Under the pieces are notes generated by a model. It was given only the letters and a program-made list of their open reading frames with translations. It ran no database searches and was not told where the DNA came from. A program made the position numbers and the translations under genes. This document shows positions 383 through 12,655 of a DNA stretch of 20,344 bases, piece by piece (within the stretch, counting starts at the first letter, position 1; every line of letters begins with the position of its first letter). Source of the DNA: a virus; the IMG/VR virus record IMGVR_UViG_3300017708_001978, positions 1 to 20,344 of that record; one strand, given 5' to 3'.

Positions 383-1132
383 ATGTCTGAAAAAAAGTAT
401 GACTTCCCCACTGAAACAGTAGAATTACCTTCAAAAGGTCTTGTTTATTCTAAAGATAACCCTCTTTCATCAGGTGAAATTGAGATGAAATATATGACTG
501 CTAAAGAAGAAGATATTTTATCTAACCAAAACTATATTGAAAAAGGTACCGTAATCGATAAATTATTAGAATCTCTTATAGTAAGTAAGATAGATTATAA
601 AGATCTAATTACTGGAGATAAAAATGCCTTAGTAATCGCTGCTAGGATTTTAGGATATGGAAAAGAATATAAGTTTGAAATATCGGGTGAAACTTTTACG
701 GCAGATTTAAGTAAATTAGAAAATAAAAAAATTGATACTTCTTTATTTGAAGAAGGTGTAAATGAATTTGCATATACCCTACCGAATTCAGGTGTACCTA
801 TTACTTTTAAATTATTATGTCATAGAGATGACATGGCTATAAATAATGAATTACGTGGGTTGAAAAAGATTAAGAAAAACGAATCACCTGATATCTCTAC
901 TAGAACTAAATACATGTTAACCTCTGTAAATGGTGAAACTGATAGGGCAACAGTTAGAAAATTTGTTGATAATCACCTTTTAGCCATGGATGCTAGAGAG
1001 TTAAGAAATTATATTAAAAATATTCAACCTGATATTGATTTAGTAACTACGGTAACCGATGAAGAGGGTGCGCAAATGGAAACAGAAATTCCCTTCACAT
1101 TAAATTTTTTTTGGCCAGACGCAAAATTATAG
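383..1132 (+). CDS. 26: T4 gp26-like baseplate hub/assembly protein
   Basis: This 249-aa protein resembles the T4 gp26 baseplate family. Visible family-like features are ELPSKGLVY near residue 15, EIEMKYMTAKEEDILSNQNY at about 32-51, KLLESLIVSK, and a C-terminal half that handles LCHRDDMAIN. T4 gp26 is about 208 aa and takes part in assembling the central baseplate hub. The start has no Shine-Dalgarno sequence (AATTGTAATCT precedes ATG). The gene is followed by a gp51-like frame and then a tape measure gene, the same order as the tail-assembly-chaperone pair before the tape measure in many tailed phages. The stop TAG at 1130-1132 lies shortly after an eight-T run (1105-1112) where ribosomes may slip into the next frame. 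Family assignment is from remembered sequence patterns, not a search. Confidence 0.75.
   Translation: MSEKKYDFPTETVELPSKGLVYSKDNPLSSGEIEMKYMTAKEEDILSNQNYIEKGTVIDKLLESLIVSKIDYKDLITGDKNALVIAARILGYGKEYKFEISGETFTADLSKLENKKIDTSLFEEGVNEFAYTLPNSGVPITFKLLCHRDDMAINNELRGLKKIKKNESPDISTRTKYMLTSVNGETDRATVRKFVDNHLLAMDARELRNYIKNIQPDIDLVTTVTDEEGAQMETEIPFTLNFFWPDAKL
1103..1114 (+). other. candidate ribosomal frameshift site (T8 run before TGG)
   Basis: In the gp26 frame the codons here are AAT TTT TTT TGG, giving an uninterrupted run of eight T (1105-1112). Slipping +1 on TTT (1109-1111 to 1110-1112), or -2, enters the frame that stays open to 1415 and encodes the gp51-like domain. That frame has a stop at 1101-1103, so it can be entered only downstream of it. 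Between 1104 and 1209 it contains no ATG, GTG or TTG codon. A +1 slip would join 243 gp26 residues to 100 more, giving about 343 aa. Confidence 0.55.
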
Positions 1133-1208
1133 GTCTCTTTTATTCACTCAGATCCATTCTATCGTCTTTCATGGAAATGGTGGCTTTGATTACCACACGG
1201 TATACAAC

Positions 1209-1415
1209 ATGCCTATATGGTTGAGGAAATTTACATATAATCAATTGCAAACTCATTACGATAAACAAAATGAGGATATGAAAAGAGCCCAATCTAAAAG
1301 TAAATCTAAGGATACTACTAATATAGACATGGCTAACACTAATAAAGTTAATGTACCCGATTTTGTTAAAAAAAGACCTAGCTATTCTTCTACCGTAAAA
1401 AGGCCTAATCAATAA
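1209..1415 (+). CDS. 51: gp51-like baseplate hub assembly protein (probably expressed as a frameshift extension of gp26)
   Basis: The first ATG gives a 68-aa protein starting MPIWLRKFTYNQLQTHYDKQ. The same frame is open back to 1104 and upstream of the ATG encodes IHSIVFHGNGGFDYHTVYN. This runs directly into MPIWLRKFTY and has the composition of a conserved domain: G-N-G-G-[FY]-D-Y-x-T-V-Y-N-M-P-[IL]-W-L-R. It resembles, from memory, the small gp51 proteins of marine T4-like phages. No standard start codon exists for the upstream part, so the ATG at 1209 would cut the domain in half. The C-terminal tail is Lys/Ser/Asn-rich and probably disordered. The tape measure gene follows at once. I favour synthesis as a gp26-gp51 fusion by frameshifting; a short protein from 1209 is also possible. 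Confidence 0.6.
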   Translation: MPIWLRKFTYNQLQTHYDKQNEDMKRAQSKSKSKDTTNIDMANTNKVNVPDFVKKRPSYSSTVKRPNQ

Positions 1416-6821: not shown

Positions 6822-9800
6822 ATGTCAAATATATTAGGAGAAGTTTTTAAGGATTATGTAAGGCAGCAGATAAATAACAGGCAGTCATTATTAGGCCAAC
6901 GGTCATATAGTAATAATGATTTGCAAGTAATAAACTCAAAAGCTCCTTTCTTAAGACTTATATCATCCGTTGATGTGGGTGAACATTTTCTTACTACTAC
7001 TACTGTCGTTGAACCCCCTCCTGCTGCTACAGGATTTACTATTAACGAACCTATTCAGTCTGGGTTAGGATCTACGGGTAATACCCCCGTTCCAACTGGT
7101 CCTGATGTAAATGGTGATGGTGTAGTAGTTACAGAGGAACAAATATTATATGATGCTGCTGTTACAGATTATGAAAGTGGAACCCTAATTGATATAGGGG
7201 GTACTGATATAGAAAATCGAGTAAATACTGGACTTAGTGATGATATTGATATTCTTGGAGCTGCTTTCCCTGTTATCCCTAAACCAGTTGATACAACTAT
7301 TACAACCGAAGAGGATGGTGTTATAACTACTGTACAAACTACCACTGAAGAGGATCGTAATGAAGGTCCTTTTCCTGACTTAACTCAAGATATAACTGTT
7401 TCTACTGTTAATACTGAAACGGGAGCTGCTACTATACAGACTATTGAAGCATACACGGGTGCCATTACGAGAACAGATACAATTCCCACAAAACAAGGAA
7501 CAGTATTACAAAGATTATTAGACCTAGGAATATCTGAAGATTTTATAAAAGGAGATTCATTAGCTAAAAATCTTATATTACATGGTGGTACATCTAATCA
7601 ATCAGGTATTAGAAGTGGCATTAATTCTTCCAATGGTGCTTATGGGTGGGGTGGTATAGATGAACGTGGATATGTCCCTATGCCTGGTATTACAGATGCA
7701 TCCGTTAAATTTTATAATAATGGTGCTTTATCTGAAGCTACAATTAACATAAAATGTTTCAGTAGAAATCAATTTGCTCTAATTGATGCCCTATATTTAA
7801 GACCTGGTTACACCTTATTATTGGAATTTGGTCATTCAGTATACATAAATAATTCTGGGAATAAAGAGGAAATGGATGATTTTTTAAGCCCTGCAGCTGA
7901 TGCAGTGTTAACAGGTAATAAAACTCAATTCCAAATATATGATTTAATAGAGGGTGAGAGAGAAGACCGTGATGGCAACTATGATGCTGTGTATGGGAAA
8001 ATAACTAAATTTAACTGGTCATTCAATAAAGATGGATCCTATGATTGTACAGTAAATTTAATAGGTTTAGGTAGTATAATAGAATCCTTAAAATTAAATT
8101 CTGGTCCTTTACTTTCTACAAATAGTAGTCTTAATGAAAAATTTCGATTTTACCAAGCAGCAAACCAAGTTGTAGTTGATACTCAAGCGATGGCGGGTGG
8201 ATCTTCAACAGATGGAGTTAGTGCAGAGGCTAATGTATTAGGAGTTAAATCACCAACACTGTTACATTTTTATATATTTTTAATTCAATCAAGCGCACCT
8301 GAAGCTATATCAGCTTCACCCGCTCAAGTAGCAGGAGCAGGAGGCACTAATTTAAGTGTAAAAGAAGGAGGAGCTACCATATCTGAAAGAACTGCACAAG
8401 CCGAAGCAGCAGCTGCTAATATAGGTGATAAATTAGTAGCTGGGCAATTCTCTACACAAGTTAGGGATTTTAAATTATTTGATGTTGATCTAAATCAAGA
8501 TGGTAAATCAGGTACGGCTACTATAAAAGATGCTATATTATATGTTTCAGGCGTAACAGCCCCTGTTGATGAAGGTATTAATGGGGTACAATCATATATA
8601 AAATTTGGTTGCCTTATTTCTATAATAAATCGTAAAATGATGTTTTACGATGGTGAGCGCAATGCAACTCCCTTTACTAAAATAGATATGAATTTTGGTA
8701 ATGGTACTCAAAAATTTGAAACAGATAAAAATTACATGCTCAGTGTGCCTGGACAATTATCTGGTAATCCTAAAGTGTGTATAATCCCATACACTAACTT
8801 ACAGGATGCAAGTGGTTTCCCCGATTTACATAACACAGAATTAAATGGGGTCGTAAGAGATATGAATACGGGCTTTAAAGTAAGTGGTGAAAAATATGTA
8901 GGGAGAATAGCTAATATATTAGTTAATACTGAGCATGTTGCAAGGTGTTTAAATAATTCTGCTAATTCGGATGGAGATATAATGGCACTAAATTTTCTGC
9001 AAAATCTTTTAGGGGATATTAATAATGCATTAGGAGGTGTTAATAATTTTAAAGTAGAAATAGATGATGAAGGACTAGTAAAAATAGTAGATAGAATTCC
9101 TCCCCAATATAGATCCTTAGCTCTTGACAATGGTAGCACCGTAACTACTATAAATGCTTTTGGTGTAACCCCTGGGGGAAATGGTTCATTTGTAAGAGAT
9201 GTAAAATTATCATCAGAGTTAAATAATGATTTTGCTACCGCTATAGCCATAGGTTCCCAAGTTAATGGAAACCAACCAGGAGCTAATGCAACTAACTTTT
9301 CCCAATATAATAGAGGATTACAAGATAGAATAATTAAAGAAAAATTATCTGCCTATAATAATATATCATCTAGTTCTGGTAAAAATCTTAGGGACGTAAG
9401 AAATGATATGATAACATTTTTATATCCTACTTATTCAAAAATGCAATATAATGCAGAATCTTTAAGTGGGTTTGAAAGTAAAAATAAAACTTACGCGCAA
9501 ATGTTAGTAGGGGAATTATCCAATACTGGTAATATATCTCCTCCTTTTTTCCTTCCTTTTAATTTAACACTTACATTAGATGGAATTTCAGGTATTAAAT
9601 TATTTCAAAAGTTTAAAGTATCAGAGAATGTTTTACCCCCAACATATACTGCAGAACAAGTAGATTTATTAGTTAAAGAAGTTAACCATAACATATCTGT
9701 AGATGGGTGGACTACAGAAATAGGTACATTATCCGCACCCGCAATTGCCGAAGGAGAGAAAGCTAATAATGCCATAAAACCTTTTGTAGATTATAAAAAG

Positions 9801-10571
9801 GCTTTATTTAGTAAATTATTTAGTATTGCTAATGCATTAGATGATGCTAATGATGTTTCAACTGCGGCTTCGGTTAAAACAGTAGGAGGTAGAGATTCAG
9901 AATACTCAGGTGCTGCTTCTATGTTACCTGCGGCCAATGCTACCGCAGAACTTAAAGTATGGCCTAGACTTATAAAAACAGATCCTGATGGTTATATAAA
10001 TGCCAATTTCCAACAAACCCCTCCACAATGGATGCCATTCCATTCGGAGTATTTAAAAACTAATGGTAAATATGCAAGCATTACTAGTCCAATGACATCC
10101 GGTAGATTTTCATCTAACGAAGTCCATTCAGGGGCTGATATAGCAGTAAGTAATGATCCTAAAGCACGAATTATAGCCCCTATAGGTGGTAGCATGAGAG
10201 CAGGAAATAACCCAGGAGGTTTTGGACCATTTTACCCTCGAATCACTCCTGCATCTAAAATTTTAATACAGGATGGGGCACCTGGAGGGACAATGATGTC
10301 TTATGAAGTGTGGTTAGGACATAATTCTAAATACATAGGTGCAGATCCCGGACCCGTTAACGCTGGAGATGTAGTAGCATGGCAGGGCAACATGGGCAAG
10401 TCAAGTGGTGAGCATTTACACATAGAAATATATTTCCAACCACCTTCTTCTTCCCCCTTAAGAGAATCTGGGCAAACTCAGTTTTGTGTAGACCCTTTTG
10501 CATGGTTAGATAAACAACCGATTCCTAGTAATGCATCTAGATTAGTGCCAGGTACTAAAAAATATCAATAA
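6822..10571 (+). CDS. giant baseplate hub protein with C-terminal M23 peptidoglycan peptidase
   Basis: A 1249-aa protein. Residues about 60-220 are a Thr/Glu/Val-rich low-complexity stretch holding an EF-hand-like loop at 95-106 (DVNGDGVVVTEE). Residues about 280-420 contain ALIDALYLRPGYTLLLEFGH and resemble hub domains of marine T4-like phages. A second calcium-loop-like motif, DLNQDG, starts at 556. The C-terminal 160 residues are a LytM/M23 metallopeptidase: H1102-x3-D1106 (HSGAD), H1167 (WLGHNS) and H1198-x-H1200 (HLH), so all zinc and catalytic residues are present. It would cut peptide cross-links in host peptidoglycan at injection, the job done by the gp5 lysozyme in T4. The stop overlaps the next start as TAATG. 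The peptidase is nearly certain; the hub role is inferred from size, context and partial motifs. Confidence 0.8.
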   Translation: MSNILGEVFKDYVRQQINNRQSLLGQRSYSNNDLQVINSKAPFLRLISSVDVGEHFLTTTTVVEPPPAATGFTINEPIQSGLGSTGNTPVPTGPDVNGDGVVVTEEQILYDAAVTDYESGTLIDIGGTDIENRVNTGLSDDIDILGAAFPVIPKPVDTTITTEEDGVITTVQTTTEEDRNEGPFPDLTQDITVSTVNTETGAATIQTIEAYTGAITRTDTIPTKQGTVLQRLLDLGISEDFIKGDSLAKNLILHGGTSNQSGIRSGINSSNGAYGWGGIDERGYVPMPGITDASVKFYNNGALSEATINIKCFSRNQFALIDALYLRPGYTLLLEFGHSVYINNSGNKEEMDDFLSPAADAVLTGNKTQFQIYDLIEGEREDRDGNYDAVYGKITKFNWSFNKDGSYDCTVNLIGLGSIIESLKLNSGPLLSTNSSLNEKFRFYQAANQVVVDTQAMAGGSSTDGVSAEANVLGVKSPTLLHFYIFLIQSSAPEAISASPAQVAGAGGTNLSVKEGGATISERTAQAEAAAANIGDKLVAGQFSTQVRDFKLFDVDLNQDGKSGTATIKDAILYVSGVTAPVDEGINGVQSYIKFGCLISIINRKMMFYDGERNATPFTKIDMNFGNGTQKFETDKNYMLSVPGQLSGNPKVCIIPYTNLQDASGFPDLHNTELNGVVRDMNTGFKVSGEKYVGRIANILVNTEHVARCLNNSANSDGDIMALNFLQNLLGDINNALGGVNNFKVEIDDEGLVKIVDRIPPQYRSLALDNGSTVTTINAFGVTPGGNGSFVRDVKLSSELNNDFATAIAIGSQVNGNQPGANATNFSQYNRGLQDRIIKEKLSAYNNISSSSGKNLRDVRNDMITFLYPTYSKMQYNAESLSGFESKNKTYAQMLVGELSNTGNISPPFFLPFNLTLTLDGISGIKLFQKFKVSENVLPPTYTAEQVDLLVKEVNHNISVDGWTTEIGTLSAPAIAEGEKANNAIKPFVDYKKALFSKLFSIANALDDANDVSTAASVKTVGGRDSEYSGAASMLPAANATAELKVWPRLIKTDPDGYINANFQQTPPQWMPFHSEYLKTNGKYASITSPMTSGRFSSNEVHSGADIAVSNDPKARIIAPIGGSMRAGNNPGGFGPFYPRITPASKILIQDGAPGGTMMSYEVWLGHNSKYIGADPGPVNAGDVVAWQGNMGKSSGEHLHIEIYFQPPSSSPLRESGQTQFCVDPFAWLDKQPIPSNASRLVPGTKKYQ

Positions 10572-11395: not shown

Positions 11396-12655
11396 ATGTT
11401 TTGGTTAATAGAAACTAAAGATCAATTAGATAAATTTATTACTAGGGATGCTACTAAAGCATTTATTGAGGTAATTCCTTTTAACTATAATATTCATCCT
11501 GCGGATAATAATCCTATTTCTTTAATTTATGTTAAACCTTTAGGATATAATGGCTACATAGTAGCTATTAACCATTCAGAAACTCTTAATCTATTAGGTA
11601 TTAGTTGGTTAGATAGATTTGATACTATATATGTTAGGGACAAAAAAGAGATTTTACATTATATATATCATTCTAATATTATTGATTTAACTTTAAATAA
11701 AGCTAATTACCAAAAACCATTTACAAAAACCCATAATCATTTTTACTCTAAATACCCCGTTAAAAAGGATTTAAATATTTTAATTCCTGTCACTAAACAC
11801 TTTGAGTATTGTGAAAATTTATATGATGATTTAAAATTTTATATCGATGAACCTATCAACGACTTTTATAACAGAAAATCTACAGTGGCATTCTACGCCC
11901 TCGAGTCCAATGGAATTAGAATATGTAAAGACAAATTTGAAGAAAAATTCCATAGCATACACAATGACACTGTCTATACTCAATATAACTTCAAAACTAC
12001 AACTACTAGACCTTCTAATAAATTCAGAGGAGTAAATTATTCTGCTCTATCAAAAAAAGATGATTCTAGGGAGGCATTTATACCCTCTAATGATTTATTT
12101 ATAGAAATGGATATATCAGCCTACCATCCTTCATTATTGGCTAAACTCATAGATTATAAATTTAATGAAGGGGATATACATGAAGCATTTGCTAAAATGT
12201 ATGGGGTAGAATATAAGGAAGCAAAACAACTTACCTTTAAGATGCTATATAGTGGTAATTTTGGTAAATATTCTGAATTAGAGTTTTTCAAAAAAGCTAA
12301 ACAATTTACTAATATAATTTGGGAGGAGTTTAATACCAATGGATTTATTGAATGTCCCATATCTAAATATAAATTTGAAAAAGATAAATTGGAGGATATA
12401 AACCCACCAAAACTATTAAATTATTTGCTACAGAATTTGGAAACCGCAAATAATGTTCTTATATTGTGGAGGATATTTAAGACACTAAAAAATAAACAAA
12501 CCAAACTAGTATTGTATAACTACGATTCATTTTTATTTGATTTTCACAAATCAGAAAAATATTTAATAGATGAGTTAAAAATGCTATTTAAAGAATTTGG
12601 GTTACGAATAAAATTAAGTTATGGAACAAACTACTCTTCTTTACAATCCCTCTAA
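11396..12655 (+). CDS. compact family A-type DNA polymerase
   Basis: A 419-aa protein with the polymerase motifs of the PolA family. Motif A is MDISAYHPSLLA with D239. DIHEAF (260-265) matches the DIH before the fingers helix. Motif B is K277-x3-F281-x3-Y285 followed by NFG. Motif C is YDSFLFDF with D377 in place of the usual HDE. Before these, ALESNGIRI (about 168-176) matches the thumb-start motif. Both catalytic aspartates are kept. Motif A is unusual, with HPS where PolA has E-L-R. The first 150 residues hold FIEVIPFN and NGYIVAINHSE, which look like a decayed 3'-5' exonuclease with the first Asp missing. Family A enzymes are usually 550-900 aa. T4 itself uses a family B enzyme (gp43), absent from this window. 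It overlaps the next gene by 35 bases. Confidence 0.75.
   Translation: MFWLIETKDQLDKFITRDATKAFIEVIPFNYNIHPADNNPISLIYVKPLGYNGYIVAINHSETLNLLGISWLDRFDTIYVRDKKEILHYIYHSNIIDLTLNKANYQKPFTKTHNHFYSKYPVKKDLNILIPVTKHFEYCENLYDDLKFYIDEPINDFYNRKSTVAFYALESNGIRICKDKFEEKFHSIHNDTVYTQYNFKTTTTRPSNKFRGVNYSALSKKDDSREAFIPSNDLFIEMDISAYHPSLLAKLIDYKFNEGDIHEAFAKMYGVEYKEAKQLTFKMLYSGNFGKYSELEFFKKAKQFTNIIWEEFNTNGFIECPISKYKFEKDKLEDINPPKLLNYLLQNLETANNVLILWRIFKTLKNKQTKLVLYNYDSFLFDFHKSEKYLIDELKMLFKEFGLRIKLSYGTNYSSLQSL

Follow-up and report, generated by a model that had tools for sequence, protein, structure and literature searches.

The window, a 20,344-nucleotide stretch of viral DNA (IMGVR_UViG_3300017708_001978, 1-20,344; GC 33%), carries a T4-type tail assembly chaperone gene whose short form is TAC-N and whose long form, TAC-NC, appears to be made by +1 programmed frameshifting; we give this reading a probability of about 0.9. 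The gene is coded in two frames, and both the arrangement and its phase are conserved in relatives (Table 1).

Two open frames ahead of the tape measure gene

The gp26-like frame ends with AAT TTT TTT TGG CCA GAC GCA AAA TTA TAG, and the +1 frame crosses the junction as ATT TTT TTT GGC CAG ACG. The second frame is open from 1104 to 1415, preceded by a TAA at 1101-1103; its first ATG lies at 1209, and it contains no ATG, GTG or TTG codon within 1104-1208. If TTTT in the eight-T run (1105-1112) is read as one step, TAC-N and the C domain form an unbroken 343-aa protein, ...LNFFGQTQNYR..., which is TAC-NC. The original prediction had described this locus from the letters alone, and recomputation confirmed its coordinates, the run of eight T, the lack of a start in the upstream domain and the 343-aa length of the product. 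A 103-codon open stretch would arise by chance with a probability of about 2e-4 at 33% GC, but chance origin is irrelevant since the +1 phase is conserved in relatives. Runs of seven or more T occur five times in the window, the run at 1105 among them; a nine-T and a seven-T run lie at 312-330, in the gap that separates the laminin-G gene from the chaperone gene.

Table 1. Features of the chaperone locus (window coordinates)
Feature	Position	Strand	Basis
TAC-N, short form, gp26-like	383..1132	+	ORF, 249 aa, C-terminal end ...NFFWPDAKL*; phrog_150 match
Overlap of the two frames	1104..1132	+	ORF coordinates
Frameshift signal TTTTTTTGGCCAGAC	1106..1120	+	Conserved 15-nt block, motif scan, re-pairing count
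C domain ("T" domain; gp51-like in cyanophage annotation)	1113..1415	+	+1 frame after predicted slip
Start-less conserved segment (...LFTQIHSIVFHGNGGFDYHTVYN)	1133..1208	+	pN/pS per frame
68-aa ORF from ATG 1209, likely annotator's call	1209..1415	+	ORF list
Tape measure protein, 674 aa	1434..3458	+	BLASTP to phage immuto tape measure

Phase and slip signal are conserved in relatives

Protein searches of viral contigs and phage records gathered 149 loci with both domains. The second frame is +1 of the gp26-like frame in all 149 (115 distinct junctions), as it is in 15 more distant loci and in the isolated phages immuto, Mel-JY01, SP-15, LIS04 and SagM-GXN1. Well over a hundred related marine viruses preserve the +1 signal. 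The original prediction looked to relatives for a conserved phase, T run and start-less upstream domain: the phase holds without exception, whereas the T run is kept in part, with 7 or 8 T in 102 of the 115 distinct junctions and 3-4 T in the other 13, and the lack of a start in 65 of 111 relatives. One could still imagine that a single fused gene was split in the record by a homopolymer error of sequencing or assembly, as seven T instead of eight would join the gp26-like and the second ORF in frame. The probability of this is negligible: it is refuted by the phase shared among 149 loci drawn from many samples and isolated phages, sites without a homopolymer included.

Across the 115 distinct junctions, a 15-nt block, TTT[T/C]TTTGGCC[T/A]GAC, is 99-100% conserved at most positions between variable flanks. 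Its conservation alone does not prove function, because the two-frame coding overlap accounts for part of the constraint. Independently of protein similarity, we ran the pattern TTTYTTTGGCCTGAC over viral contigs and retrieved at least 120 stretches. Among the 120 matches listed, 118 fall in the chaperone gene, 117 of them with gp26-like and +1 domains; the other three are one gp26-like gene ended by a contig edge and two chance matches. The 15-nt signal is by itself diagnostic for the chaperone gene.

Purifying selection on the start-less segment

We counted substitutions in the stretch that runs from the gp26 stop to the first ATG, using two length classes of relatives. The pN/pS ratio in the +1 frame was 0.26 in the 25-codon class and 0.34 in the 31-codon class, as against 1.1-1.7 in the other two frames of the same segment, which points to strong purifying selection in the +1 frame only. 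These ratios and the absence of ATG, GTG and TTG from the segment in the 65 relatives indicate that it is translated in the +1 frame, generally without a start codon of its own, and in general it would be reachable only through the shift.

The C domain might instead be a separate small protein, translated from ATG 1209 or by reinitiation, with no joined product. Short ORFs of this kind are annotated in immuto, SP-15 and cyanophages, the M before PIW is kept in 108 of 111 relatives, and in two loci, L171 and L176, a separate start precedes the entire domain. What this reading does not accommodate is the stronger constraint before the ATG position than after it, the start-less state of the segment in most relatives, and immuto, where the M is missing at that position. 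We therefore reject an internal start as the main explanation and judge it highly improbable; ATG 1209 is probably not the main start of the C domain.

Direction and proposed mechanism of the shift

The original prediction allowed a +1 or a -2 slip on the T run, and only the first fits the relatives throughout. Re-pairing of the P-site tRNA is possible after a +1 move at all 133 sites and after a -2 move at 105, the window's own included. A -2 ribosomal frameshift, as used by phage Mu (PMC5009743), whose tail chaperone likewise has its C domain in the +1 frame, would enter the same frame with one extra Phe (344 aa, NFFFG). It is impossible at 28 sites: TTC TTT TGG (14 loci, a separate clade), TTT CTT TGG (12, immuto among them) and the singletons TTT CTA TTC (LR756508) and TTC TTT CGT (Streptococcus phage SagM-GXN1). 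The re-pairing counts thus argue that the shift is +1 rather than -2, and the latter, although the least improbable of the alternatives, is unlikely and was rejected as the main explanation.

None of these 28 sites has a long T run, which speaks against both transcriptional slippage and the homopolymer error. Slippage of the polymerase on the T run would yield mRNAs of changed length with no ribosomal shift, and the 7 or 8 T of the 102 junctions would suit it. The phase is, however, still +1 where the run is just 3-4 T long, as in the 13 other junctions and in the L161-L175 clade (4 T), and we rejected slippage, too, as the main explanation; it is quite unlikely, somewhat more so than the -2 shift. 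A programmed frameshift joining both domains before the tape measure gene, as originally proposed, is strongly supported by the phase, the pN/pS ratios and the slip signal.

Nearly all sites share UUU followed by U or C, and the simplest mechanism is therefore that tRNA-Phe leaves UUU and re-pairs with UUU or UUC; we infer such re-pairing from this range of sites. Positioned on UUU in the P site, the tRNA would move one base forward onto the overlapping UUU (UUC in relatives), and GGC would be taken as the next codon in place of UGG. Most ribosomes would make TAC-N (249 aa) and a minority TAC-NC (343 aa). For the window's phage, the predicted junction peptide is NIQPDIDLVTTVTDEEGAQMETEIPFTLNFFGQTQNYR under +1 and an FFF version under -2. 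In E. coli prfB (CUU U) and influenza PA-X (UUU CGU), the P-site tRNA likewise re-pairs one base forward, and for PA-X a stimulator is not evident (PMC5009743); those genes and their purposes are different, and here the A-site codon is usually UGG. The slip site of SagM-GXN1 (L150:6700-6720), GAA UUC UUU CGU C, contains UUU CGU, the P-site/A-site pair of PA-X. Consensus folding of 35 junctions, each spanning 40 nt upstream and 100 nt downstream of the slip, found no conserved RNA structure, and a Shine-Dalgarno-like motif within about 20 nt upstream is absent in most relatives, with AGGGG at -10 in five only. Given no conserved structure and no well-placed Shine-Dalgarno-like stimulator, the efficiency may be low.

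Identity and function of the two domains

The N domain matches phrog_150 (baseplate hub; E 5.8e-10, residues 3-244), in agreement with the predicted gp26-like identity. The window's N-domain protein has no PF12322 match; SP-15 gp26, its BLAST relative, matches PF12322 at 1.5e-28. Direct comparison of the N domain with the Kyanoviridae gp26 profile is poor (probability 6%), and the link between them runs through phrog_150 and SP-15 as an intermediate. The C domain has no phrog_634 match, and hhalign gave a probability of 87% to the SP-15 group and a weak 36% to the domains of S-PM2, HTVC008M and T4. Its place is that of the C-terminal extension in T4 gp51 (phrog_634), and the predicted "gp51-like" label is right only in this sense, which is that of cyanophage annotators; as a statement of direct profile similarity it finds little backing.

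The AlphaFold2 model of the N domain has a pLDDT of 91. Its top VIA match, the HK97 tail assembly chaperone 2ob9, is weak (Z 4.6, rmsd 4.3, 97/104 residues), followed by 5ir0 with Z 3.9 and the remaining matches with Z at or below 2.4, and the Foldseek probability for the HK97 chaperone was 0.18. An HK97-like fold of the modelled N domain is suggestive and by itself not proof. Searched against the sequences of solved structures, the N-domain profile gave nothing at E<=1. The N-domain fold also has a match in a much longer protein, BFVD A0A8S5RZL9 (Myoviridae sp. ctNQV2, 430 aa), which might be an in-frame long form.

The chaperone gene directly precedes the tape measure gene, whose product matches the protein annotated as tape measure in Flavobacterium phage immuto (BLASTP 31% over about 500 aa, E 2e-50). 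BLASTP found no relation between it and the SP-15 tape measure protein. The position before the tape measure, the two-product design and the fold match make a tail assembly chaperone the best reading; we infer this role from position, family and fold, and both products very probably help to build the tail. Placing the T4 hub proteins in the chaperone scheme, as the original prediction did, is not new, Vladimirov et al. in 2022 having reportedly identified T4 gp26 and gp51 as tail assembly chaperones. Lambda G/GT likewise comprises a short form and a long form made by frameshifting, encoded immediately ahead of the tape measure gene (PMC5009743), with -1 at a different site. By analogy with G/GT, a coat of many TAC-N and few TAC-NC copies would form on the tape measure protein, and tail tube subunits would be brought in through the C domain.

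Variation across the T4-type family

Kyanoviridae gp26 and "gp51" share with the window gene phrog_150, the place before the tape measure gene, the start-less C domain and a U-rich shift site. Their shift is -1 at N UUU UUC, whereas here it is +1 at UUU UUU UGG: all 80 Kyanoviridae-like loci encode the C domain in the -1 frame, at N TTT TTC in the loci listed, as do S-PM2 and HTVC008M. Comparative evidence for a frameshifted TAC exists also for another myovirus, the Vandenendeviridae phage Adele, with -1 at GTTTTT (PMC12846349). A tree built from 43 N domains separates the +1 from the -1 members by a branch with support 100/99; T4 gp26 and gp51 fall on the -1 side, on long branches and with unsure placement.

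T4 belongs to the same family (phrog_150, PF12322, both matched by gp26 and gp51), its gp26 corresponding to the short form and its gp51 to the long form, but it has two separate full genes without a frameshift (PMC10885494) where here there is one. On the phrog_150 profile of 282 positions, T4 gp26 stops at 235 and T4 gp51 runs to 280, its C-terminal part also matching phrog_634. For S-PM2, gp26 matches the profile up to 232, and the -1 frame supplies its continuation from 231. The joint of the two frames therefore sits where the T4 paralogues differ.

L171 and L176, nested within the +1 branch (pair support 100/99), have lost the slip-site UUU. In both (L171:3180-3300, L176:3180-3300), a separate ORF encodes the C domain in the remaining alternative frame; it begins at its own ATG immediately behind the gp26 stop and is longer by about 20 residues at the N-terminus. 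A proper C-domain start in relatives had been named in the original prediction as telling against it; in these two, that start is in another frame. Their separate C ORF implies that the joined protein is not needed in every lineage. On balance we lean toward a single chaperone family that kept a short and long pair and changed how the long form is made. One deep branch, apparently not previously described, would use a +1 slip of tRNA-Phe on UUU-Y and its counterpart a -1 shift on U UUU UUC; T4 would have duplicated the gene, and a lineage nested in the +1 branch would have lost the slip site and gained a new start for a separate C domain.

Other genes in the window

The window begins with the C-terminal end of a laminin-G-like (Laminin_G_3) protein (2-292), directly upstream of the chaperone gene; in immuto and Mel-JY01, the tail tube gene stands at that place. 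A baseplate-region protein of 1249 aa (6822-10571) carries at its C-terminus a domain resembling M23 peptidases (Pfam E 2e-4, under the curated cut-off). Adjoining gp32-, UvsX-, exonuclease- and helicase-like genes, 11396-12655 encodes a 419-aa protein with faint profile matches only (phrog_16320, E 4e-4; phrog_6375 DNA polymerase, E 0.07) and with the polymerase-like stretches FIEMDISAYHPSLLAKLI and KQLTFKMLYSGNFGKY; it is possibly a very divergent, short DNA polymerase.

Discussion

Different phages are known to frameshift their tail chaperone genes by -1, -2 or +1, and a 2016 review treated T4 as the exception (PMC5009743). Some T4-like phages have one short and one long gene (PMC10885494), and a passage in another paper credits poly-T -1 signals in T4-like chaperone genes to Vladimirov et al. 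2022 (PMC12846349). The chaperone assignment of gp26 and gp51 and the -1 signals are already known, and we do not claim them as new. What may be new is the +1 solution, conserved across one deep T4-type branch and opposite to the -1 of Kyanoviridae, together with the nested lineage that has abandoned it for a separate start.

In public records, the +1 members are annotated as a hub protein with a short hypothetical protein unrelated to it, or the C domain is omitted. In immuto, Mel-JY01, SP-15 and LIS04 (L147:8713-8961, L148:8749-8985, L151:6701-6925 and L152:6689-6925), the +1 C domain is either labelled a hypothetical protein, separate or truncated, or not annotated. The long form is missed by current annotation, and the short DNA signature can find such chaperone genes in unannotated virus contigs. 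With T4-type chaperones that would make both forms from one gene by a +1 shift, the ratio of the forms, the direction of the shift and the need for a covalent link between the two domains become testable in isolates such as immuto and SP-15.
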